DNA from: Bernardetia sp. ABR2-2B
GTDB lineage: Bacteria > Bacteroidota > Bacteroidia > Cytophagales > Bernardetiaceae
Direction: 5' to 3'
Length of the DNA stretch: 64,000 bases
Assembly: GCF_037126435.1 (NCBI RefSeq)
Contig: NZ_CP147020.1
Location: 2,159,293 to 2,223,292, forward strand
Shown: piece after piece, positions 54,561 to 63,104 of the stretch
Numbering within the stretch: the stretch's first letter is position 1
How the letters are laid out: each line of letters starts with the position of its first letter
Translations under genes and position numbers: made by a program
Notes under the pieces: generated by a model
The model's database searches: none
The model's input: the letters and a program-made list of their open reading frames with translations, nothing else
What the model was told of the DNA's origin: nothing

Positions 54561-55295
54561 TTATAATTTATAAGCGAGAGCCAACATCAAACCCAAGCTT
54601 TTCTTTCTGAATCTATCATTATCAAAAGCAAACTTGTCATCAGTTGTATATTCTGAAAACAGAAAACTAGCTCCTGCACAAAGAGCAATTTTATCGCTTA
54701 TATCATAATGAGCATAAATTTCAGAGTTCAGACTTCCAATATCATAATCTCCTGTCAAGAGTAAATTGAAATTAGTAACCGAAGCATTTGAAGTAGTAGG
54801 TGGAATATTTTCACTGTACGAATAGAAAACACTTTCTTGGTCTTTGCCAAAACTAAAACCAATCGCATCAATATTAAAACCTACACTAAATTTTTTAGAA
54901 AATTGATACATCAAAAAGATAGAAGCGTTCAAAGAATTAGTTTGTGCATTAGGTAAAAATAAAGTATCTAGCTTTTCTTCATTTTGAGGAGTAAGAAAAT
55001 TACCTTCCGAAACATCAGCAGGAGCAGTTACATAATCCACTTTTTTACCAAAATAGGAAGTAAGATGCGCTCCATAACCAATAAAAAATCGTTTTTTGAA
55101 AGCTACTGGATGCAGACGAGAATACGCAAAAGCAGATGAAAAGCCATCTTGATAAACTCCTAGCGAAAGGTTAAAATCAGAATAAATCTGATTTGTATTG
55201 ACAGTTTCTGTTTCATCTTGTGAATAGCTATCATTAGCCAAAGAGAAAAAGAAAATCACAGAAGTAATGAAACTATAAAAAAATACTTTGTTCAT
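54561..55295 (-). CDS. Outer-membrane beta-barrel-like protein
   Basis: A 244-residue exported protein; the signal peptide ends near residue 25 (ANDSYSQ). The rest alternates hydrophobic and polar residues in strand-length stretches (FNLSLGVYQDGFSSAFAYSR, FFIGYGAHLTSYFG, FSVGFNIDAIGFSFG, FNLLLTGDYDIG) and ends MLALAYKL with a terminal hydrophobic strand. It resembles small porin-like barrels, with no named family. Its 5' region (start codon plus leader) is duplicated at 63065-63099, on the far side of the peptide cassettes. Confidence 0.7.
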   Translation of the reverse strand: MNKVFFYSFITSVIFFFSLANDSYSQDETETVNTNQIYSDFNLSLGVYQDGFSSAFAYSRLHPVAFKKRFFIGYGAHLTSYFGKKVDYVTAPADVSEGNFLTPQNEEKLDTLFLPNAQTNSLNASIFLMYQFSKKFSVGFNIDAIGFSFGKDQESVFYSYSENIPPTTSNASVTNFNLLLTGDYDIGSLNSEIYAHYDISDKIALCAGASFLFSEYTTDDKFAFDNDRFRKKSLGLMLALAYKL

Positions 55296-55321
55296 AAAAG
55301 AGATTTCTAAATTGTAAAATG
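55287..55321. repeat. Left copy of 35-bp direct repeat flanking the cassette region
   Basis: It covers the first codons and the leader of the beta-barrel gene. It is identical to 63065-63099 except for two bases. The two copies enclose about 7.7 kb of cassette DNA. Confidence 0.85.
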
Positions 55322-55510
55322 AATGAAATAGTTATGAATTATCTTTTCCTTTTTTTTATCTGTGTAGCTAAAATTGAGTTTCTTTATTTCAATCATTGCC
55401 AAGGTCAAAACAAATGGTTTAGTAAAAAGTGTCTTTTAATACAAATACAATTTTACTACACTACCTTTTTTTTACCGTTTTTTCTATATCAAGAATGCTA
55501 ATCAAAGGAG

Positions 55511-55610
55511 TAAAAAGCCTTTATGAATAAAGAAAAACATTCTACTAAACTAATGAAAATAAGAATGTTTTGCTACTCTCTCGGTTACTTCTATTTTTTT
55601 AATCAAAAAA
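55511..55610 (-). repeat. Orphan copy of the 7TMR-DISM gene upstream region
   Basis: About 95 percent identical to 59331-59430, and related over its first 65 bp to 63001-63065. It includes the hairpin AAAACATTCT / AGAATGTTTT, whose 10-bp stem is perfect here. In the other two places a DISM gene follows; here it does not. Confidence 0.82.
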
Positions 55611-55645
55611 AAGCCACAAAACGATTACTCATTGTGTGGCTCTTC
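55611..55645 (-). terminator. Terminator of the four-peptide array
   Basis: On the minus strand AGCCACACAATGA, loop GTAA and TCGTTTTGTGGCT form a 13-bp stem with one mismatch, followed by T8. It is conserved at the end of the three-peptide array. Confidence 0.92.
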
Positions 55646-55663
55646 TACCGAAGCTATTAAAGT

Positions 55664-55747
55664 TTAGCTAGGACGATTCTCTAATTGAGGGAATAATATA
55701 TCCTCAATATTAATCGTGTCATCGCAAATTTGACCTCCTCCTCTCAT
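55664..55747 (-). CDS. Micropeptide A1 (27 aa), four-peptide array
   Basis: The last ORF of the first array. It reads MRGGGQICDDTINIEDILF followed by PQLENRPS. The N-terminal part, with three glycines and the only cysteine in the family (C8), is unlike the other copies, while the last 15 residues are identical to its neighbours. No Shine-Dalgarno is visible, as is normal here. The terminator lies 18 bases after the stop. Confidence 0.8.
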   Translation of the reverse strand: MRGGGQICDDTINIEDILFPQLENRPS

Positions 55748-55779
55748 AATAAGATAGAATTTGATTAACTATAATACTT

Positions 55780-55838
55780 GGTATAGTAAACCTTGCCTAC
55801 GTGTTTTCCGATGTGAAGGGTGGGTAGGAGATTCCCTT
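55780..55838 (-). promoter_or_regulatory. Conserved leader element of micropeptide A1
   Basis: The 59-nt block runs from AAGGGAATCTCC to GGTTTACTATACC on the minus strand. The stem CCTAC/GTAGG encloses about 23 nt. It differs from its neighbours by one G in the loop (CGGAAAAC). Confidence 0.65.
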
Positions 55839-55870
55839 TCGTTTATATTTTTTACCGAAGCTACTAAAGT

Positions 55871-55963
55871 TTAGCTAGGACGGTTTTCTAATTGAGGGAA
55901 TAATATATCTTCTATATTAATAATATCAGTTTCTGCGCCTGCCATTCTATTTTTCATAGTCAT
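55871..55963 (-). CDS. Micropeptide A2 (30 aa), four-peptide array
   Basis: It reads MTMKNRMAGAETDI followed by the common INIEDILFPQLENRPS. Three in-frame ATGs (55963, 55957, 55945) are possible starts; the first two are shared with A4. Codons for the common part differ from A1 at third positions (ATA/ATT, GAA/GAG, AAC/AAT), so the peptide is conserved beyond the DNA. Confidence 0.8.
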   Translation of the reverse strand: MTMKNRMAGAETDIINIEDILFPQLENRPS

Positions 55964-55988
55964 TATAATTTAATTAATCATAGTTTTT

Positions 55989-56047
55989 GGTATGATAAAC
56001 CTTGCCTACGTGTTTTTCGATGTGAAGGGTGGGTAGGAGATTCCCTT
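55989..56047 (-). promoter_or_regulatory. Conserved leader element of micropeptide A2
   Basis: The same 59-nt block as at 56409, with stem CCTAC/GTAGG and a terminal GGTTTATCATACC. Confidence 0.65.
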
Positions 56048-56080
56048 TTGTTTATGTTTTTCTATCGAAGCTATTAAAGT

Positions 56081-56164
56081 TTAGCTGGGACGATTCTCTA
56101 GTTGAGGGAATAAAATATCCACAATATTTTGTTGACCATCATCAACATACCGAACTGATTTCAT
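56081..56164 (-). CDS. Micropeptide A3 (27 aa), four-peptide array
   Basis: It reads MKSVRYVDDGQQ followed by NIVDILFPQLENRPS. It is the only copy with V in place of E in the IED position. It uses CTA for leucine and CCC for proline where others use TTA and CCT. The N-terminal part is unique. Confidence 0.8.
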   Translation of the reverse strand: MKSVRYVDDGQQNIVDILFPQLENRPS

Positions 56165-56196
56165 AATAATCTAAAATTTAATTAACTATAATACTT

Positions 56197-56255
56197 GGTA
56201 TAGTAGACCTTGCCTACGTGTTTTTCGATGTGAAGGGTGGGTAGGAGATTCCCTT
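56197..56255 (-). promoter_or_regulatory. Conserved leader element of micropeptide A3
   Basis: A 59-nt block with stem CCTAC/GTAGG; the final part reads GGTCTACTATACC. Confidence 0.65.
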
Positions 56256-56287
56256 TCGTTTATATTTTTTATCGAAGCTATTAAAGT

Positions 56288-56383
56288 TTAGCTGGGACGA
56301 TTCTCTAGTTGAGGGAATAAAATATCTTCTATATTTATAGTCTCAATATCACTAGGAGGTTGCATTCTATTTTTCATAGTCAT
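56288..56383 (-). CDS. Micropeptide A4 (31 aa), four-peptide array
   Basis: The first ORF of the array, next to the GNAT gene. It reads MTMKNRMQPPSDIET followed by INIEDILFPQLENRPS. Its first seven residues equal those of A2, while residues 8-15 differ, so variation is confined to a short middle section. The start could also be at 56377 or 56365. Confidence 0.8.
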   Translation of the reverse strand: MTMKNRMQPPSDIETINIEDILFPQLENRPS

Positions 56384-56408
56384 TATAATTTAATTAATCA
56401 TAGTTTTT

Positions 56409-56467
56409 GGTATGATAAACCTTGCCTACGTGTTTTTCGATGTGAAGGGTGGGTAGGAGATTCCCTT
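56409..56467 (-). promoter_or_regulatory. Conserved leader element of micropeptide A4
   Basis: This block begins 13 bases after the GNAT stop codon, so the acetyltransferase and the array are probably on one transcript. Confidence 0.65.
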
Positions 56468-56480
56468 ATTTCTTTATATG

Positions 56481-57092
56481 CTATTTGCTAATTTCTTTGT
56501 ATTCAGTTAGATGTTTTTCTAATAATTTATCAAGCGTTTGATTTCCTTCTAATATAGAATACAAATACAAATCTTTGTATTCTCCATTGATGAAAACTCT
56601 ATCTCTTATATGCCCTTCTCTTTCGAAACCAAATTTTTCTAAAAGACTTATTGTAGATTTATTTTCAGGCATTGTCTTGGCACTTATAGTGTGCAAATTC
56701 ATTGTTTCGAAGCCAAACTTGAGAAGAGCCAAAAAACCCTCAATTGCTAATCCTGTACGCCAATATCTCTCAAAGAGTACTCCGTCTATTTCAGCTCTAT
56801 GGTTCGTAACATCTACTGCATTGAAAGTACATATTCCAATTAGCTCATCACTTCCTTTTAGAGTGGCAACCCAAGGCATTGCCCATTTTTTCTTATAGAA
56901 ATGATGCAACTTATCGATATATTTAACGGCATTTTCCAACGTATTTTCCTTCTTGTATCCAAGAAATCTTTTTACTTTCTCAGAAGATTGAAGCTCAAAA
57001 ACTTTGTCTTGGTCTTCTAATCTTATTTCTCTAAGAATCATATTTCGTGTTTCAAGAGGAATGACTTTTTCAAATACTTTATGGTTTATCAT
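56481..57092 (-). CDS. GNAT family acetyltransferase (RimJ/RimL-like), cassette 1
   Basis: A 203-residue acetyltransferase of the type that acetylates N-terminal amines of peptides or proteins. Residues 9-30 (VIPLETRNMILREIRLEDQ) form the usual first strand and helix; HRAEIDGVLFERYWRTGLA (98-116) is motif A, with the acetyl-CoA pyrophosphate loop RTGLA intact; NLHTISAKTMPENKSTISLLEKFGF (132-156) is motif B with the helix after ENKST. It is followed by four micropeptide ORFs in the same direction, an arrangement repeated at 59.5-60.7 kb. The peptides may be its substrates (inference). Confidence 0.88.
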   Translation of the reverse strand: MINHKVFEKVIPLETRNMILREIRLEDQDKVFELQSSEKVKRFLGYKKENTLENAVKYIDKLHHFYKKKWAMPWVATLKGSDELIGICTFNAVDVTNHRAEIDGVLFERYWRTGLAIEGFLALLKFGFETMNLHTISAKTMPENKSTISLLEKFGFEREGHIRDRVFINGEYKDLYLYSILEGNQTLDKLLEKHLTEYKEISK

Positions 57093-57225
57093 TTTGGCTT
57101 GATAGTTTAATTCTTGTTGTTGATTACTTTCTCGTTACGAAACTTAAAGTAAAGAACGAACTATTTTGGTTGCTTTCGTTGATACAATTAACGGTATTTC
57201 ACAAGAAAAAAGCTAAAAAATGGTG

Positions 57226-57242
57226 TGGACAAAGTGTGGACA
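57226..57242 (-). promoter_or_regulatory. Candidate operator: TGTCCA direct repeat, cassette 1
   Basis: TGTCCA occurs at 57237-57242 and 57226-57231 on the minus strand, spaced by 11 bp. The same word with the same spacing occurs before the second GNAT gene. One helical turn between repeats suits a HTH regulator, and the DISM protein next door is the obvious candidate. Confidence 0.55.
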
Positions 57243-57370
57243 GAATGAAAGAGTAGCATTTTTTTCGCTAAAAATATAATAAAAAGACTATTTTTTATGA
57301 AAAATAAAAGATTCAAGGAGGGCGTTCTCGAAAACCTAGCGAAAAAAAGAGTTTTATTTCATAAAATATA

Positions 57371-57410
57371 AAAAAAGCAATTCTGTAGTTTTAGCTACCG
57401 AATTGCTTTA
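57371..57410 (-). terminator. Terminator after 7TMR-DISM regulator 1
   Basis: AAAGCAATTCGGTAG pairs with CTACAGAATTGCTTT on the minus strand and runs into T7. It separates regulator transcription from the GNAT-peptide unit. Confidence 0.88.
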
Positions 57411-57438
57411 GATTTTGAGTAAAAAAGAGTTTGACTGA

Positions 57439-59304
57439 CTAATTTTCCTTATCTATTGCCTCTATTTTTTTATTCAATCTTGACTTGGCTTTGTGTACAC
57501 TTCTAGGGTTTATATTTAGTAAGGTAGCTATTTCTTTGACAGACATATTGAGATGATAATAGGCAGACAAACGAATTTCATTTTTGGTAAGTGTTGGATA
57601 TTTCTCGTTTAGTTCTTTAAAAAAGTTAGGATGTACTTCTTCAAAATGAATTTTGAAATTATTCCAGTCGCTATCTAATTGAATATCATTATTGATGACT
57701 GATTTTATTTCTTTTATTCCATCTTTATTTTGTGTACTAGAGTTTTTATAAGACAAACCTCGTATTTGCTTTTGGAGATTCGTCAGCATTTCATTTTTTT
57801 GATAGAGATAAAGCGAGTTGGCTGTTAGTTCTCTTTGATTGGCTTCTAGTTTGGCTTGTAAATCGGCTTTCTGTTTTGCTTCTTCTTCTATTTTTTGCTC
57901 TAACTCTGTTTTTTGACTGGCTTCTGATTTTATTTTGTTCTGTAAATCTATTTCTTTATTTACTGCCGTTGCCATATCAGCAATGATATGTTCGTTTTCT
58001 AATTCTATATATCTATTACGAGCCAGTATTTCTCCATTTTCTTTTTCCAATATTTCTGCTTGAAGTTGTTTTTCTTTTAGTTCGTCTTTTAGAAGGTTTA
58101 TACGAGCTACCAAAGCAATAGCAAAAGAGAGCGTTTGCGAGAGAAGTGTAAGGTGTGGTAATAATTGTATAGATGAGGAGCTTGATTTGTATACGAGTAA
58201 ATAAAGTGCAATAGACATTATACCCAATAAAGGTAGTGTATTGGCAATCAAGAAATAACGAGCTGGTTTGTAGCCATTTTTATAGGACATTATACCAACA
58301 CTAAAAATCATCAAAATTATTATGCTGAAAAATAGATTAGAAATTAAAGCTAATGAATAGTATATATTCAATGATTTGAAAGAAGCTATAATTATAGCAA
58401 ATAAGCTAAATAAAGATAAGAAGTAAGTAAGATATTTGAGTATAGTGTCCCAATATGGAAAATAAATATCTAGTTGTAAATAACTACGAGTGAATTGTAT
58501 ATAACCAAATAAAATCATCCAAATAAAACCAAAATTTAGAATATCTCTAGTCGTATAAGCATACAGCACTCCATTTGAATTTATTCCTATGTTATAAAAA
58601 TTAAAAGGAAGTACAAAATTGAATACATCAGAAAATGCTGAAATATATAAAATAGCTCCTAGTAAAATTATTAGATAATACAAATAAGTATTATCTCTAA
58701 AAACAAAATAAATATATAAATTATAAATAAAGAAAAGTAACATAGCAATAGTAACTACCAACCAAGAAACTACTATAAACTGTTCCTTATTTTCATAGGC
58801 TTCTTTTGCATATATATAAATAGACAAGTAGATTGGATACTCTTGCTCGTTAAGTTCGTTTACCTTTGATTTGACATAAAACGTATTTATTTTATTAGGG
58901 TGTAGATAAACAGAAAAAATTCCTTCTATTCGTTTAAAATCAGTTATGGCAAGCCCTGCTTGAGTAGTTTTCCATTTTTCATCATCAAAATCATAATAAT
59001 ATAGAAGATTATTTATTTTTGGTGTTAAGCTAAAATAGTATTCTTTGCCATAAGCTGAGTTGTTTTGTATAGAAAATCTAAACCAACAGTATTCTTCAGT
59101 TTCAAATTTATAAGATTTAGGGTTTTCTTGAAACTCAAGTGTAGAATCATTCAAGATTTGTTCAAAAGTATAATTCTTATCCATCAAAATCTCAAAATCC
59201 TCTATTTTTTGTACTGGTTTATCTTCTAGTACATACGTATTTTGAGCAAATAAAAATGATGCTTTCAATACAAATAATAAGCTCAAAAAATAATTAAGTT
59301 TCAT
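57439..59304 (-). CDS. 7TMR-DISM membrane regulator with LuxR-type HTH, cassette 1
   Basis: A 621-residue membrane-bound one-component regulator. Signal peptide 1-20; a periplasmic 7TMR-DISM extracellular domain (about 25-170, with YCWFRFSIQNNS); seven membrane segments (about 176-400); a long coiled coil (403-512, LQAKLEANQRELTANSLYLYQ); and a C-terminal domain with FEEVHPNFFKELNEKYPTLT and the HTH SVKEIATLLNINPRSVHKAKSR (588-609). There is no kinase or cyclase. DISM domains are thought to bind sugars or other small ligands. It is paralogous to the gene at 61082 over its full length. Confidence 0.9.
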   Translation of the reverse strand: MKLNYFLSLLFVLKASFLFAQNTYVLEDKPVQKIEDFEILMDKNYTFEQILNDSTLEFQENPKSYKFETEEYCWFRFSIQNNSAYGKEYYFSLTPKINNLLYYYDFDDEKWKTTQAGLAITDFKRIEGIFSVYLHPNKINTFYVKSKVNELNEQEYPIYLSIYIYAKEAYENKEQFIVVSWLVVTIAMLLFFIYNLYIYFVFRDNTYLYYLIILLGAILYISAFSDVFNFVLPFNFYNIGINSNGVLYAYTTRDILNFGFIWMILFGYIQFTRSYLQLDIYFPYWDTILKYLTYFLSLFSLFAIIIASFKSLNIYYSLALISNLFFSIIILMIFSVGIMSYKNGYKPARYFLIANTLPLLGIMSIALYLLVYKSSSSSIQLLPHLTLLSQTLSFAIALVARINLLKDELKEKQLQAEILEKENGEILARNRYIELENEHIIADMATAVNKEIDLQNKIKSEASQKTELEQKIEEEAKQKADLQAKLEANQRELTANSLYLYQKNEMLTNLQKQIRGLSYKNSSTQNKDGIKEIKSVINNDIQLDSDWNNFKIHFEEVHPNFFKELNEKYPTLTKNEIRLSAYYHLNMSVKEIATLLNINPRSVHKAKSRLNKKIEAIDKEN

Positions 59305-59330
59305 AGCCTATGATTTTTATGCTAGAGAAA

Positions 59331-59430
59331 TAAAAAGCCTTTATGAATAAAGAAAAATATTCTACTAAACTAATGAAAATAAGAATGTTTTGCTACTCTC
59401 TTGGTTACTTCTATTTTTTTAATCAAAAAA
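59331..59430 (-). repeat. Upstream region of 7TMR-DISM gene 1 (repeat copy)
   Basis: A conserved block shared with 55511-55610 and, in its left 65 bp, with 63001-63065. It includes the ATTCT/AGAAT hairpin and AAAGGCTTTTTATTTCT on the minus strand, so it should contain the regulator promoter. Confidence 0.75.
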
Positions 59431-59466
59431 AAGCCACAAAATGAGTAATCATTGTGTGGCTCTCCT
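59428..59466 (-). terminator. Terminator of the three-peptide array
   Basis: AGCCACACAATGA-TTAC-TCATTTTGTGGCT followed by T8 on the minus strand. It matches the terminator at 55611 with changes at the loop and one stem pair. Confidence 0.92.
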
Positions 59467-59481
59467 GTCGTAACTAAAAGT

Positions 59482-59571
59482 TTAGCTAGGACGGTTTTCT
59501 AATTGAGGCATTAATATATCTTCAATATTAATAACACCTGTATCATCTGCTTCACCACTTGGAAGTCTCAT
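59482..59571 (-). CDS. Micropeptide B1 (29 aa), three-peptide array
   Basis: It reads MRLPSGEADDTGV followed by INIEDILMPQLENRPS. An in-frame ATG eight codons upstream (59595) would add MIIKIYKP, but that frame is closed by a stop codon in copy B2, so the shorter start is preferred. Phenylalanine before the PQLENRPS tail is replaced by methionine in all three copies of this array. Confidence 0.8.
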   Translation of the reverse strand: MRLPSGEADDTGVINIEDILMPQLENRPS

Positions 59572-59602
59572 AGGTTTGTATATTTTGATAATCATAATGA
59601 TT

Positions 59603-59660
59603 GGTATGATTTACCGTACTTACACTTTTTCATAGTTGAGGGCTAGTAAGAAATTCCCTT
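59603..59660 (-). promoter_or_regulatory. Conserved leader element of micropeptide B1
   Basis: The stem is CTTAC/GTAAG, where array A has CCTAC/GTAGG: both sides of the second pair have changed together. The end reads GGTAAATCATACC. Confidence 0.68.
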
Positions 59661-59693
59661 ATTATTGTTCTAGTTTTGCTAACTAAGCTCAAA

Positions 59694-59783
59694 CTAGCTA
59701 GGACGGTTTTCTAATTGAGGCATTAATATATCTTCAATATTAATAATACCTGTACCATCTGCTCCACCACTTGGAAGTTTCAT
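59694..59783 (-). CDS. Micropeptide B2 (29 aa), three-peptide array
   Basis: It reads MKLPSGGADGTGI followed by INIEDILMPQLENRPS and stops with TAG rather than TAA. A TAA in the upstream in-frame stretch fixes the start at 59783. It differs from B3 by K for R at position 2. Confidence 0.82.
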   Translation of the reverse strand: MKLPSGGADGTGIINIEDILMPQLENRPS

Positions 59784-59814
59784 AGGTTTTTATATTTTGA
59801 TAATCATAATGATT

Positions 59815-59872
59815 GGTATGATTTACCGTACTTACACTTTTTCATAGTTGAGGGGTAGTAAGAAATTCCTTT
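59815..59872 (-). promoter_or_regulatory. Conserved leader element of micropeptide B2
   Basis: It has stem CTTAC/GTAAG; the first GGG of the block is reduced to AGG here, weakening a possible second helix with CCCT. Confidence 0.62.
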
Positions 59873-59905
59873 TTGATTTTTCTAATTTTGCTAACTAAGC
59901 TCAAA

Positions 59906-59995
59906 CTAGCTAGGACGGTTTTCTAATTGAGGCATTAATATATCTTCAATATTAATAATACCTGTACCATCTGCTCCACCACTTGGAAGTCTCAT
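59906..59995 (-). CDS. Micropeptide B3 (29 aa), three-peptide array
   Basis: The first ORF of the array after the GNAT gene. It reads MRLPSGGADGTGI followed by INIEDILMPQLENRPS, ending in TAG. B2 and B3 differ at only one residue, so this array is more uniform than the four-peptide array. Confidence 0.82.
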   Translation of the reverse strand: MRLPSGGADGTGIINIEDILMPQLENRPS

Positions 59996-60026
59996 AGGTT
60001 TGTATATTTTGATAATCATAATGATT

Positions 60027-60085
60027 GGTATGATAAACCTTGCTTACTTATTTTTCACAGTTGAGGGCTAGTAAGAAATTCCCTT
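60027..60085 (-). promoter_or_regulatory. Conserved leader element of micropeptide B3
   Basis: It begins 7 bases after the GNAT stop codon. Its stem is extended to CTTACT/AGTAAG. Confidence 0.68.
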
Positions 60086-60092
60086 ATTAAAA

Positions 60093-60710
60093 TTAACTGA
60101 CCTCTTCATATACAGTCAAATATTTTTCTATTAGCTTATCAATCGTTTGATTTCCCTTTATTAAAGAATATATATACATATCTCTATATTGACCATTAAT
60201 AAACATTCTATCTTTAAAATGTCCTTCTCTCTGAAAACCAAATTTTTCTAACAGACTGACTGTAGATTTATTTTCAGGATATACTTTTGCACTTACAGAG
60301 TGTAACTTCATTGTCTCAAAACCAAAGCGAAGTAGTGCCAAAAAGCCTTCAACACCTAGTCTTGTTCGCCAAAGTTCAGGTAGAAGTTCGCCATCTATTT
60401 CAGCTCTATGATTTTTTATATCAATAGGATTAAAACTACATATCCCCACTAATTCATCAGTTCCTTTTTTTGTTGCTGCCCAAGGAATTGCCCATTTTTT
60501 TTTGTAAAAATTTTGGAGCATTTCAATATATCTACTAGCATCTTCAAGAGAGTTTACATTTTGACGATAAATAAATCTATTTACAGCTTTACTAGAATGA
60601 AGCTCTAAGACTCTTTCTTTATCTGATAATTTAAGTTCTCTAAGTATTAGGTTTGGTGTTTCAAGAACCATAAATTTTTCAAATACTTTTTGGTTGATTT
60701 GGTGTATCAT
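60093..60710 (-). CDS. GNAT family acetyltransferase (RimJ/RimL-like), cassette 2
   Basis: A 205-residue paralogue of the GNAT at 56481, alignable along its whole length (KVFEKF, LILREL, KKKWAIPWAAT, HRAEIDGELLPELWRT, ENKSTVSLLEKFGFQREGHFKDR). In the acetyl-CoA loop it reads WRTRLG where the other copy has WRTGLA, so the first conserved glycine is replaced by R117. This may weaken cofactor binding. It leads the three-peptide array on the same strand and shares the TGTCCA promoter element with cassette 1. Confidence 0.87.
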   Translation of the reverse strand: MIHQINQKVFEKFMVLETPNLILRELKLSDKERVLELHSSKAVNRFIYRQNVNSLEDASRYIEMLQNFYKKKWAIPWAATKKGTDELVGICSFNPIDIKNHRAEIDGELLPELWRTRLGVEGFLALLRFGFETMKLHSVSAKVYPENKSTVSLLEKFGFQREGHFKDRMFINGQYRDMYIYSLIKGNQTIDKLIEKYLTVYEEVS

Positions 60711-60859
60711 ATTGAACTTGAGAATTAATTATTTGTATTAAAATGCTTTACTAACTTTAGAAGAAGCTAAGTAGAAGCAACTATTTTTTTTGCTGTTGCT
60801 TTCGCTGATTCCTTTGATACAAGTAACGAGATGAACACAAAAAAAGCTAAAAAAAGGAC

Positions 60860-60876
60860 TGGACAGCATATGGACA
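60860..60876 (-). promoter_or_regulatory. Candidate operator: TGTCCA direct repeat, cassette 2
   Basis: TGTCCA occurs at 60871-60876 and 60860-60865 on the minus strand, again 11 bp apart. The bases between the repeats differ from cassette 1, so the word and spacing are what is conserved. Confidence 0.55.
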
Positions 60877-61011
60877 GCACGAAAAAAAGTGTCTTTTTGG
60901 TTTAAAAATATAATTAAATTTATTTTTTATATAAAAATAACATTATTTTTGAAAAATTTATATAAGAACAGACAACTAAATTTCGAACTCTTGTTTTTTT
61001 ATTAGACATCA

Positions 61012-61051
61012 AAAAAAGCAATACCATAACTTTCATTATAGTATTGCCTTT
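61012..61051 (-). terminator. Terminator after 7TMR-DISM regulator 2
   Basis: GGCAATACTATAATG and its partner TTATGGTATTGC form the stem on the minus strand, with a following T7. The position matches the terminator of regulator 1, but the sequence has diverged. Confidence 0.85.
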
Positions 61052-61081
61052 AATTTTGAGTGTAAAAAAGAATTTGACGGA

Positions 61082-62974
61082 TTAATTTTCCTTATCTATT
61101 GCTTCCATTTTTTTATTTAATCTAGACCTAGATTTATGCACACTTGAAGGATTGATATTGAGTAGAGTTGCTATTTCTTTAGCTGTCATATTGAGATGAT
61201 AATAGGCAGAAAGACGAATCTCATATTTAGTAAGTGTCGGATATTTTTCATTCAATTCCTTAAAAAAATTAGGATGTACTTCTTCAAAATGAACTTTAAA
61301 ATTATCCCAATCACTCTCTAATCGAAGGTCATTTTTGATAGTTGATTTTATTTCTCTGATTCCTTCTCTGTTTTGAGTGGTGGTGTCTTTATAGGATAAA
61401 TTTCCGATTTGCTTTTGCAGATTTGTTAGCATTTCATTTTTTTGATAGAGATAAAGTGAGTTGGCTGTAAGTTCTCTTTGATTGGCTTCTAGTTTTGCTT
61501 GTAAATCGGCTTTTTGTTTTGCTTCTTGTTCTATTCTCTTTTCTAACTCTTCTTTCTGATTTATTTCGACTTTCATTTTTTCTTCTAACTCGGCTTTGTT
61601 GTTTACTGCTGTTATCATATCAGTCATAATATATTCGTTTTCTAATTCTATATATTTATTACGAGCTAATATTTCTTCATTTTCGGCTTCTAGTTTTTGT
61701 GATTCTAGTTGTTTTTCTTTGAGTTGGTCTTTTATAAGATTGACACGAGCTACTAAAGCCACAGCAAAGGCTAAAGTTTGAGAAAGAATGGCAATATTAG
61801 GAGCAAGACTTGGTATAAGATAAACTTTCACACCTATTCCATTGACAATTTCGTACAAGAAAAAATAAATAACTAACGCTACTGTAATTAGTAAAGGAAA
61901 TGCGTTAGCTATCAAAAAGTATTTGGCTGGTTTATAACCTTTTATTGCTGAGAGTATGCCTACACAAAGAATAGATAGGATAACAATACCAATAAGCAAA
62001 TTCTCTAAAAACAATAAATAGATATTGTAATAATTAGCACCTAATATCAGACCTATAAGTAGGAAAGAATAGCAGACACATATCCACAATAAATAAGTCA
62101 ATATTTTATTCCAAAGAGGCAGGTAAGTAGCAAGTTTTAAATACAAACAAGTAAATTTTGTAATCCCCATCAATATTAAAATGAGACCAATTCGTATCAC
62201 AACAGCATTACTATCAAAGAAAAAAAATGAGCCATTTGACATTACTTCTATACTCAACCACTTGATAGGAAGAAAAATATTAGTATGATTACGGACACTT
62301 GTTATGTATATCAAACTACCTATAAGTATAATCAAATAGTATAAATATACTCGGTCTTTAAAAATAAAAAAAAGATAGGTGTTATATAAAAAGAAGAATA
62401 CCAAAACAGAACAAGTAGAAATCCATAAAATAAGCATAAACTGTTCTTTTTCAGTAAAAACGTGTTTTTTTTCTAAAGAAAGAGTTATAGGAACAGGATA
62501 AGGTTGTTTTGATAAATATTCTACATTTACCTTTGTAAAAAAAGTAGTTATACTATTGGCACGAAATAGACAGGGAAATACATTAGGTTGTCTTTGATAA
62601 TCTGCTACTTTTAGTCCAGTAGTAGTTTGTGTCCAAGTATTATTTTCAAAATCAAAAGTATATAAAGTATTTTCAATAGTAGGAAATACACTCAAGTACA
62701 TTTGCTTAGAATATGGAGAGTTATTTTTTATACTACAACGAACCCAATAATAGTCGCTTTCTTTTGTCTTTTGAAAATCTACTTCTTCAGGATTTTTGAT
62801 AAATACCAAAGAAGTGTCTGTCAGAATTTGTTCAAACGTATAATTCTTATCAGGCAGAATCTCAAAGTTTTGTGTTCTTTCAAAGTCTTTATTTTTCAAA
62901 AGAAGAGGATTTTGAGCAAACAAAAGTGATATGTTTAGCACAAATAACAAAGTCAGAACGTAGTTTAGTTTCAT
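61082..62974 (-). CDS. 7TMR-DISM membrane regulator with LuxR-type HTH, cassette 2
   Basis: A 630-residue paralogue of the regulator at 57439 with the same order: signal peptide (1-20), DISM extracellular domain with YYWVRCSIKNNS, seven membrane segments (about 185-410), coiled coil (about 412-520) and HTH AKEIATLLNINPSSVHKSRSR. The coiled coil and HTH are nearly identical in the two copies, while the extracellular domain differs much more. The pair may therefore bind similar DNA but different signals (inference). It begins the double cassette; the 63001-63065 block upstream should hold its promoter. Confidence 0.9.
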   Translation of the reverse strand: MKLNYVLTLLFVLNISLLFAQNPLLLKNKDFERTQNFEILPDKNYTFEQILTDTSLVFIKNPEEVDFQKTKESDYYWVRCSIKNNSPYSKQMYLSVFPTIENTLYTFDFENNTWTQTTTGLKVADYQRQPNVFPCLFRANSITTFFTKVNVEYLSKQPYPVPITLSLEKKHVFTEKEQFMLILWISTCSVLVFFFLYNTYLFFIFKDRVYLYYLIILIGSLIYITSVRNHTNIFLPIKWLSIEVMSNGSFFFFDSNAVVIRIGLILILMGITKFTCLYLKLATYLPLWNKILTYLLWICVCYSFLLIGLILGANYYNIYLLFLENLLIGIVILSILCVGILSAIKGYKPAKYFLIANAFPLLITVALVIYFFLYEIVNGIGVKVYLIPSLAPNIAILSQTLAFAVALVARVNLIKDQLKEKQLESQKLEAENEEILARNKYIELENEYIMTDMITAVNNKAELEEKMKVEINQKEELEKRIEQEAKQKADLQAKLEANQRELTANSLYLYQKNEMLTNLQKQIGNLSYKDTTTQNREGIREIKSTIKNDLRLESDWDNFKVHFEEVHPNFFKELNEKYPTLTKYEIRLSAYYHLNMTAKEIATLLNINPSSVHKSRSRLNKKMEAIDKEN

Positions 62975-63000
62975 AACCTATAATTTTTATGCTAAAGAAA

Positions 63001-63065
63001 TAAAAAGCCTTTATGAGCAAAGAAAAATATTTTACTAAACTAATGAAAATAAGAATATTTTACTA
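63001..63065 (-). repeat. Upstream region of 7TMR-DISM gene 2 (repeat copy, truncated)
   Basis: It matches the first 65 bp of 59331-59430, then changes abruptly to the start region of the beta-barrel gene. This abrupt switch marks the right edge of the cassette region. Confidence 0.78.
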
Positions 63066-63099
63066 CTTGTTCATAAAAGATATTTCTAAATTGTAAAAT
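63065..63099. repeat. Right copy of 35-bp direct repeat flanking the cassette region
   Basis: It repeats 55287-55321, including the ATGAACAA start of the beta-barrel gene on the minus strand, although no barrel gene follows here. Confidence 0.85.
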
Positions 63100-63104
63100 A
63101 AAGG

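Follow-up and report, generated by a model that had tools for sequence, protein, structure and literature searches.

The window analysed here is a 64,000-nt stretch of the Bernardetia sp. ABR2-2B genome (NCBI RefSeq assembly GCF_037126435.1, contig NZ_CP147020.1, positions 2,159,293 to 2,223,292). Its minus strand carries two tandem cassettes, each composed of a regulator with a 7TMR-DISM sensor and a probable helix-turn-helix (DISM-HTH), a GNAT acetyltransferase and an array of tiny open reading frames (ORFs). The order along the minus strand is DISM-A, GNAT-A, three micro-ORFs, a terminator, DISM-B, GNAT-B, four micro-ORFs and a terminator. An earlier note made from the sequence alone had described two cassettes of the same order, and the ORF listing confirmed both their order and their coordinates. 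The tiny ORFs of array A end at 59906, 59694 and 59482, and those of array B at 56288, 56081, 55871 and 55664. The features, in window positions, are as follows.

61082..62974, minus: DISM-A, with 7TMR-DISMED2, seven-transmembrane (7TM) region, coiled coil and C-terminal HTH (ORF, Pfam)
61014..61051, minus: DISM-A terminator (fold −21.0 kcal/mol, consensus scan)
60093..60710, minus: GNAT-A, RimJ/RimL/SpeG-like acetyltransferase (Pfam PF13302)
59986..60089, minus: RNA leader of peptide A1 (leader covariance model R1, 113.5 bits)
59906..59995, minus: micropeptide A1, MRLPSGGADGTGI-INIEDILMPQLENRPS (ORF, unit alignment)
59774..59876, minus: RNA leader of peptide A2 (leader model)
59694..59783, minus: micropeptide A2, MKLPSGGADGTGI-INIEDILMPQLENRPS (ORF, unit alignment)
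59562..59664, minus: RNA leader of peptide A3 (leader model)
59482..59571, minus: micropeptide A3, MRLPSGEADDTGV-INIEDILMPQLENRPS (ORF, unit alignment)
59427..59466, minus: array A terminator (fold −18.9 kcal/mol, z −6.1)
57439..59304, minus: DISM-B regulator (ORF, Pfam)
57374..57409, minus: DISM-B terminator (fold −15.5 kcal/mol)
56481..57092, minus: GNAT-B (ORF, Pfam, structure model)
56368..56471, minus: RNA leader of peptide B1 (leader model)
56288..56377, minus: micropeptide B1, type I, MKNR, MKNRMQPPSDIET-INIEDILFPQLENRPS (ORF, unit alignment)
56155..56259, minus: RNA leader of peptide B2 (leader model)
56081..56164, minus: micropeptide B2, type II, MKSV, MKSVRYVDDGQ-QNIVDILFPQLENRPS (ORF, unit alignment)
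55948..56051, minus: RNA leader of peptide B3 (leader model)
55871..55957, minus: micropeptide B3, type I, MKNRMAGAETDI-INIEDILFPQLENRPS (ORF, unit alignment)
55738..55842, minus: RNA leader of peptide B4 (leader model)
55664..55747, minus: micropeptide B4, type II position, start MRGG, MRGGGQICDDT-INIEDILFPQLENRPS (ORF, unit alignment)
55607..55646, minus: array B terminator (fold −19.4 kcal/mol)

The separate regulator and array terminators proposed in the earlier note were borne out by folding: 0/200 shuffles were as good as the array hairpins, and the hairpins 3' of both DISM genes also folded far better than shuffles. A plain terminator consensus scan (4 matches, against 2.4 expected from shuffles) listed the DISM-A hairpin alone among them. 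A third array was found in the related genome MAG-102 (G006, JAHDBD010000001.1), where two micropeptides come after a GNAT 48% identical to GNAT-B and share the tail, leader and terminator seen here. A GNAT adjoins the array in 3/3 arrays. The earlier note had put forward as a check that the tail should reappear beside a GNAT in a relative, and this was observed. By inspection, the array terminator hairpin is kept with paired changes between the two Bernardetia species.

Micropeptides with a constant tail and a variable core

All seven tiny ORFs end in INIEDIL(M/F)PQLENRPS or a sequence close to it (NIVDIL in B2), in agreement with the shared tail noticed earlier. With at most one mismatch, the tail DNA pattern gave 7 matches in its own genome and the reversed control 0. 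All nine peptides, seven here and two in MAG-102, have M followed by K or R at the start and PQLENRPS at the end. This conserved start lies 8 codons inside the listed ORFs of A1 and A3 and 2 codons inside those of B1 and B3. Measured from it, the peptides are 27-29 residues long, and the 8-10 residues between start and tail are hypervariable.

Across the nine tails there are 19 substitutions, of which 11 are synonymous against 5.4 expected (P=0.0008) under a simple null that places the same substitutions at random. In the last eight codons (PQLENRPS), 6/6 changes are synonymous. The tail thus appears to be under protein-level selection, and the tiny ORFs look like real genes.

The core behaves differently. 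Its length is 24, 27 or 30 nt, and 9/9 units are open from start to tail. Between B1 and B3, the leader is identical over 88/88 nt and the start codons are identical, while the tail is 88% and the core 53% identical; flanks and middle differ in their changes (6/151 vs 10/24, hand-entered counts; Fisher P=1.7e-6). When the cores of eight units were aligned in pairs, with A2 left out because its core equals that of A1, 24/28 pairs aligned no better than shuffled sequence. Judged from these alignments, selection or replacement seems to be directed at the core. Array A consists of three almost identical units, and two kinds of unit alternate elsewhere, as I-II-I-II in array B and I-II in MAG-102. 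The start blocks are common to both genomes, MKNR in B1, B3 and M1 and MKSV in B2 and M2, with the exception of B4, which occupies a type II position and starts with MRGG.

We considered whether activity might reside in the constant tail, as a pheromone or tag present in several copies for dosage, with the N-terminal part an unconstrained spacer. The last eight residues, invariant in 9/9 peptides, and the near identity of the array A units are in line with this idea. However, a leader that is fully identical between B1 and B3, even at unpaired positions, beside a core of 53% identity is unexpected under neutral drift, and the start blocks are kept across genomes, so we regard it as unlikely.

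A tail profile searched against 390 genomes of the order gave strong matches only in the own genome (7) and MAG-102 (2); at E<=1 there was some match in 75 genomes, the best other one (E 0.0026) lying inside a 288-codon open frame. Among 59 relatives, the tail DNA pattern with at most one mismatch occurred in 23 genomes, with exact matches in the own genome and MAG-102 only. The one-mismatch matches in the 21 further genomes have no tails in common within loci and were taken as chance.

RNA leaders of the peptide units

Each of the nine micro-ORFs is preceded by its own RNA leader of ~85-89 nt. RNAalifold predicted two hairpins from the nine leaders, with 11 pairs, 4 of them showing compensatory change. 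When an H-type pseudoknot helix was added, giving 15 pairs, 99.3% of 135 cells were paired; 0/500 shuffles were as high, and slid controls reached 45.9% at most. Four pairs are changed on both sides, which 10/500 shuffles matched. Further pair types numbered 5 against a shuffle mean of 6.5, lower than in 500/500 shuffles. In the pseudoknot helix, three pairs are invariant and one has a broken cell, with no compensatory change. Covariation in the alignment thus supports the two leader helices, and conservation points to a possible pseudoknot helix. Three single-leader folds were not clearly above shuffles (z −0.49, +0.34, −1.41), and the full-unit fold gives a rival pairing of the leader 5' GGGA with the RPS codons.

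Rfam gave no match within the arrays at E<=1, its two sub-threshold matches lying outside them, and a known RNA family was accordingly rejected for the leaders. No tRNA-like element was found. The leader model, run with stricter filters against the 390 genomes, matched strongly only the nine known units; weak matches in two further genomes (G041, G246) lie in or beside other coding sequence. One weak match (E 0.074), probably due to chance, lies upstream of small antitoxin-like and PIN-like ORFs, named by eye, at locus L174 ~1565-1850. We also rejected an attenuator or leader-peptide reading of the units, because a terminator-like hairpin closes each array and the genes after the arrays differ (DISM-B, an outer-membrane-type gene, engB).

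Could the structured RNA be the working part? In type III toxin-antitoxin systems (ToxIN), tandem pseudoknot RNAs hold a nuclease. The arrays resemble them in having tandem repeats with possible H-type pseudoknot RNAs beside one enzyme gene, and one could imagine pseudoknot-like repeats that hold a GNAT toxin, with the ORFs secondary. The leader present in 9/9 units, its pairing and doubly changed pairs, and an array copy number that varies (3, 4, 2) are all compatible with this, and GNAT toxins are known from type II systems. Unlike type III repeats, however, the repeats here encode a selected peptide whose tail codons change synonymously, they lie downstream of the enzyme gene, and the unit, at ~210 nt, far exceeds the known type III repeats in length; the gene beside them encodes a GNAT in place of an endoribonuclease. 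The pseudoknot helix lacks compensatory change, the further pair types fall below all 500 shuffles, the three single-leader folds are weak, and PADLOC gave no match for the GNATs. An RNA-based system therefore seems improbable to us. Unlike type II GNAT toxin-antitoxin loci (TacT/AtaT), the GNATs have no adjacent ribbon-helix-helix antitoxin gene upstream: no same-strand ORF >43 aa lies in the 346 and 371 nt before them, and the DISM gene precedes.

Acetyltransferases, regulators and their genomic sites

The RimJ/RimL-like GNAT and DISM identities given in the earlier note are supported by Pfam scores above the cutoffs. PF13302 (Acetyltransf_3) scored 88.4 and 78.8 bits in the two GNATs (cutoff 25.4), which are 63% identical to each other. 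The GNAT-B model (predicted local distance difference test score, pLDDT, 72) has a SpeG/RimL-like fold, with 608 PDB fold matches at E<=0.001; the closest folds include RimL, RimJ and SpeG, and the iterative lasso-peptide acetyltransferase 9iy3 is at rank 48. Among phage protein families, the GNATs match phrog_1249, a generic acetyltransferase family. A suspected damage to the acetyl-CoA loop was dropped, since homologs vary at the same place.

In both regulators, 7TMR-DISM_7TM and DISMED2 are above the curated cutoffs. The best Pfam scores for the HTH are below them, and its predicted model resembles the output domains of VraR, EvgA and DosR (probability 0.99-1.00, weak E of 0.14-0.63). DISM-A and DISM-B are 40% identical in the sensor, 39% in the 7TM region, 73% in the coil and 84% in the HTH. 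Such a diverged sensor and 7TM region with a kept HTH is as expected if the two regulators respond to distinct signals and target similar DNA.

A third DISM-HTH paralog lies in the own genome (locus L137 2833-4632) between a cytochrome-like gene and engB, with no array there. Among the 12 genomes searched, the DISM subfamily was found in the own genome and G005 only; it was not found in MAG-102, a genome 84% complete. The G005 copy has no GNAT or array, on a short contig starting 177 nt before the gene. In G005 (L138 177-2748 and L163 2678-3703), the ORF after the DISM gene resembles by eye a paralog of an engB-adjacent ORF of the same genome, another hint tying the DISM subfamily to the engB neighbourhood.

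A direct-repeat element lies upstream of GNAT-B.

57224..57243, minus: direct-repeat element CTGTCCACACTTTGTCCACA upstream of GNAT-B, possible promoter or operator (pattern search)

With 2 mismatches allowed, the element (T/C)TGTCyAyACTTTGTCyAyA was found in five places in the own genome; positions noted for it are the above one and L104 7097, L137 4828, L163 2492, L168 1501 and L170 1501. It lies ~130-190 bp upstream of GNAT-B and of unrelated genes in L163, L168 and L170, and farther from engB in L104 and L137. It appears to be a promoter or operator shared within Bernardetia; the idea of a DISM-specific operator was weakened, as it also precedes unrelated genes.

The cassette pair forms a ~7.8-7.95-kb insertion, with 7.95 kb between a flanking oxidoreductase gene and an outer-membrane-type gene. 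The same flanking genes adjoin with <100 nt between them in MAG-102 and relative G001. Relative G002 has ~0.8 kb and another ORF between them, and the flank examined in G003 showed no oxidoreductase. The 7.95 kb contain as ORFs >=120 aa the two DISM and two GNAT genes only. Repeats accompany the insertion.

62975..63066, minus: repeated element upstream of DISM-A (repeat alignment, D9, 92%, and D6)
63067..63102, strand not assigned: 36-nt direct repeat at the high-coordinate insertion end (repeat D16, 94%)
55288..55323, strand not assigned: 36-nt direct repeat at the low-coordinate insertion end, overlapping the start of the outer-membrane-type gene (D16)

The element upstream of DISM-A has further copies before DISM-B (~59305-59397) and after array B (~55506-55577). 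The 36-nt repeats enclose both cassettes, and the copy at 55288-55323 forms the beginning of the adjacent outer-membrane-type gene.

The GNAT and array of MAG-102 are bordered by a cytochrome-like gene (named from its CxxCH motif) on one side and engB on the other, and the GNAT is the only ORF >=60 aa between these two genes. At the corresponding spot, the own genome has its third DISM paralog and G002 only ~125 nt. The linkage to DISM genes that the earlier note expected is weaker than that to the GNAT: no DISM gene adjoins the MAG-102 array, and the site of that array is occupied by a DISM paralog in the own genome. This swap is the strongest argument for a link between DISM and GNAT-array; a shared insertion hotspot would also explain it, and the distribution of the DISM subfamily, found in the own genome and G005 but not in MAG-102, speaks against such a link. 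GNAT and array are kept together in both species, each at another chromosomal site; judged by the occupied and empty sites, the cassette appears to move.

Other origins were set aside. A phage collection had no match to array A, a plasmid collection had none to array B with GNAT-B, and viral contigs held no relatives. The plasmid GNAT matches were generic (260 records, all <60% identity). With nothing close in these collections, a phage or plasmid origin was rejected. An integron-like cassette was set aside because every unit has the same tail. A defence system was also rejected, PADLOC giving no GNAT match and one weak coiled-coil match for DISM-B (ZorA, E 0.0012).

A possible peptide modification system

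Tentatively, we favour the explanation that this is an inserted, tandemly duplicated cassette encoding lineage-specific ribosomal peptide precursors, with the tail as handle, the core as product and the GNAT as modifier or immunity factor. The micropeptides would resemble precursors of ribosomally synthesised and post-translationally modified peptides (RiPPs) or pheromones, with a variable core and a follower-like tail. By this tail the GNAT or a host protease may recognise the precursor, and the core would be the specific product, diversified like RiPP, bacteriocin or pheromone cores. The GNAT could acetylate the N-terminal amine of the peptide, or the finished product as self-immunity or detoxification. 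Because A1, A3 and B4, read from the conserved start, contain no lysine, any common acetylation site would be the N-terminus. The RNA leader may control translation of each unit, and the DISM-HTH protein may sense an extracytoplasmic cue, possibly the product, and set transcription.

By analogy, there are precedents for each step, but separately. The acetyltransferase AlbT is required for the lasso peptide albusnodin (PMC9266682), bottromycin and autoinducing peptide (AIP) precursors carry follower peptides (PMC10885120), and DISMED domains are predicted to bind ligands (PMC6107284).

Several points weigh against this explanation. The system is present in only two genomes, which leaves nine units for the core statistics, and the synonymous excess in the tail was judged by a simple null. 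Four core pairs do align above shuffles, namely A1-A3, A1-B3 (P=0.004), A3-B3 (0.028) and B1-B3 (0.019); the cores of B1 and B3 have therefore diverged and are not unrelated. Inspection of the micropeptides showed no evident signal peptide, genes for an exporter, a protease or a cyclising enzyme were not found in the insertion, and the MAG-102 array lacks a DISM neighbour. Moreover, none of 35 GNAT homologs (27-39% identity) has a repeated short-ORF array downstream, as judged by repeated 12-mers within 1.3 kb and short ORFs within the first 700 nt; the most repeated 12-mers were at L185, with 11. These loci were 29 of a class-wide set, the best-scoring among those listed, and 6 others, one of them an own-genome paralog, and they imply that the original function of the GNAT family itself lies elsewhere.

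Two further alternatives were weighed. The peptides might be toxins or antimetabolite carriers, the GNAT serving self-immunity only. Microcin C offers the parallel, since there, as in the cassette, a tiny peptide gene accompanies a RimL-like acetyltransferase, MccE. A RimL/SpeG-fold GNAT adjoining tiny peptide genes, the fast divergence of GNAT and cores and the patchy presence among relatives fit such a role. However, the long ORFs of the insertion include no MccB-like adenylating enzyme or exporter, and microcin C has one heptapeptide gene, not arrays of 27-29-residue peptides; we give this alternative little credence. Equally doubtful is a GNAT whose substrate is some unrelated small molecule, for instance a polyamine, beside a selfish or decaying repeat expanded by chance: the wide GNAT family (relatives at E<=1e-25 in 85/395 genomes of the class), the 35 loci without an array and SpeG among the closest folds would suit it, but not the purifying selection on the tail, core length changes that stay in frame, the terminator hairpin kept between species or the co-retention of GNAT and array at two sites.

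Returning to the precursor explanation, the arrays can be set beside known peptide systems. Their architecture fits that of bottromycin-type precursors, with a variable putative core on the N-terminal side, a conserved C-terminal segment that may act as a follower and no leader peptide; they differ in having several precursors per locus, each with an RNA leader, and no YcaO or amidohydrolase gene is among the long ORFs of the insertion. As in the albusnodin cluster, a GNAT gene adjoins a tiny precursor gene, but the B protease and C cyclase genes of lasso peptides are missing from the insertion. GNATs also occur in microviridin and goadsporin clusters; in contrast to microviridins and other graspetides, no ATP-grasp ligase is present in the insertion, where the GNAT is the only enzyme besides the regulators. 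With AgrD/AIP signalling, the arrays share a short precursor, a variable core, a constant tail and a membrane sensor nearby, whereas an AgrB-like protease and a histidine kinase are lacking and the sensor is a one-protein DISM-HTH. The earlier note had seen no fit to a known RiPP class, and its interpretation is partly supported. Because several defining enzymes are absent from the insertion and no class known to us has these features together, we did not file the system in any RiPP or toxin-antitoxin family.

We know of no class with this combination of features, and a literature search found no recognised description of such a system. It is conceivable, though we hold it more loosely than the precursor explanation, that these loci represent an undescribed class of mobile cassettes, in which one acetyltransferase processes, or is controlled by, micropeptide arrays with hypervariable cores, constant tails and structured leaders under a DISM-HTH receptor, and that they serve Bernardetia in kin recognition, pheromone signalling or competition. 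Since genes of ~30 codons seldom receive annotation, such peptide systems are readily overlooked. The per-unit RNA leaders, the hypervariable cores and the absence of the insertion at its site in two relatives had escaped the earlier note; a minimal unit of GNAT plus precursor emerges from tail selection, hypervariable cores, conserved leaders and the empty-site comparison taken together. Should the peptides prove to be produced and acetylated, they would form a system with a single modifying enzyme and offer a way into signalling in a bacterial group for which, to our knowledge, no peptide signalling is known. If instead the leader RNA turns out to be the binding partner, a connection between pseudoknot-like repeats and a GNAT would follow.

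The regulators share DISMED2 and 7TM domains with other 7TMR-DISM receptors and differ in output: the outputs described in PMC6107284 are kinase, GGDEF or EAL domains, whereas here a coiled coil and a probable HTH follow the membrane region.

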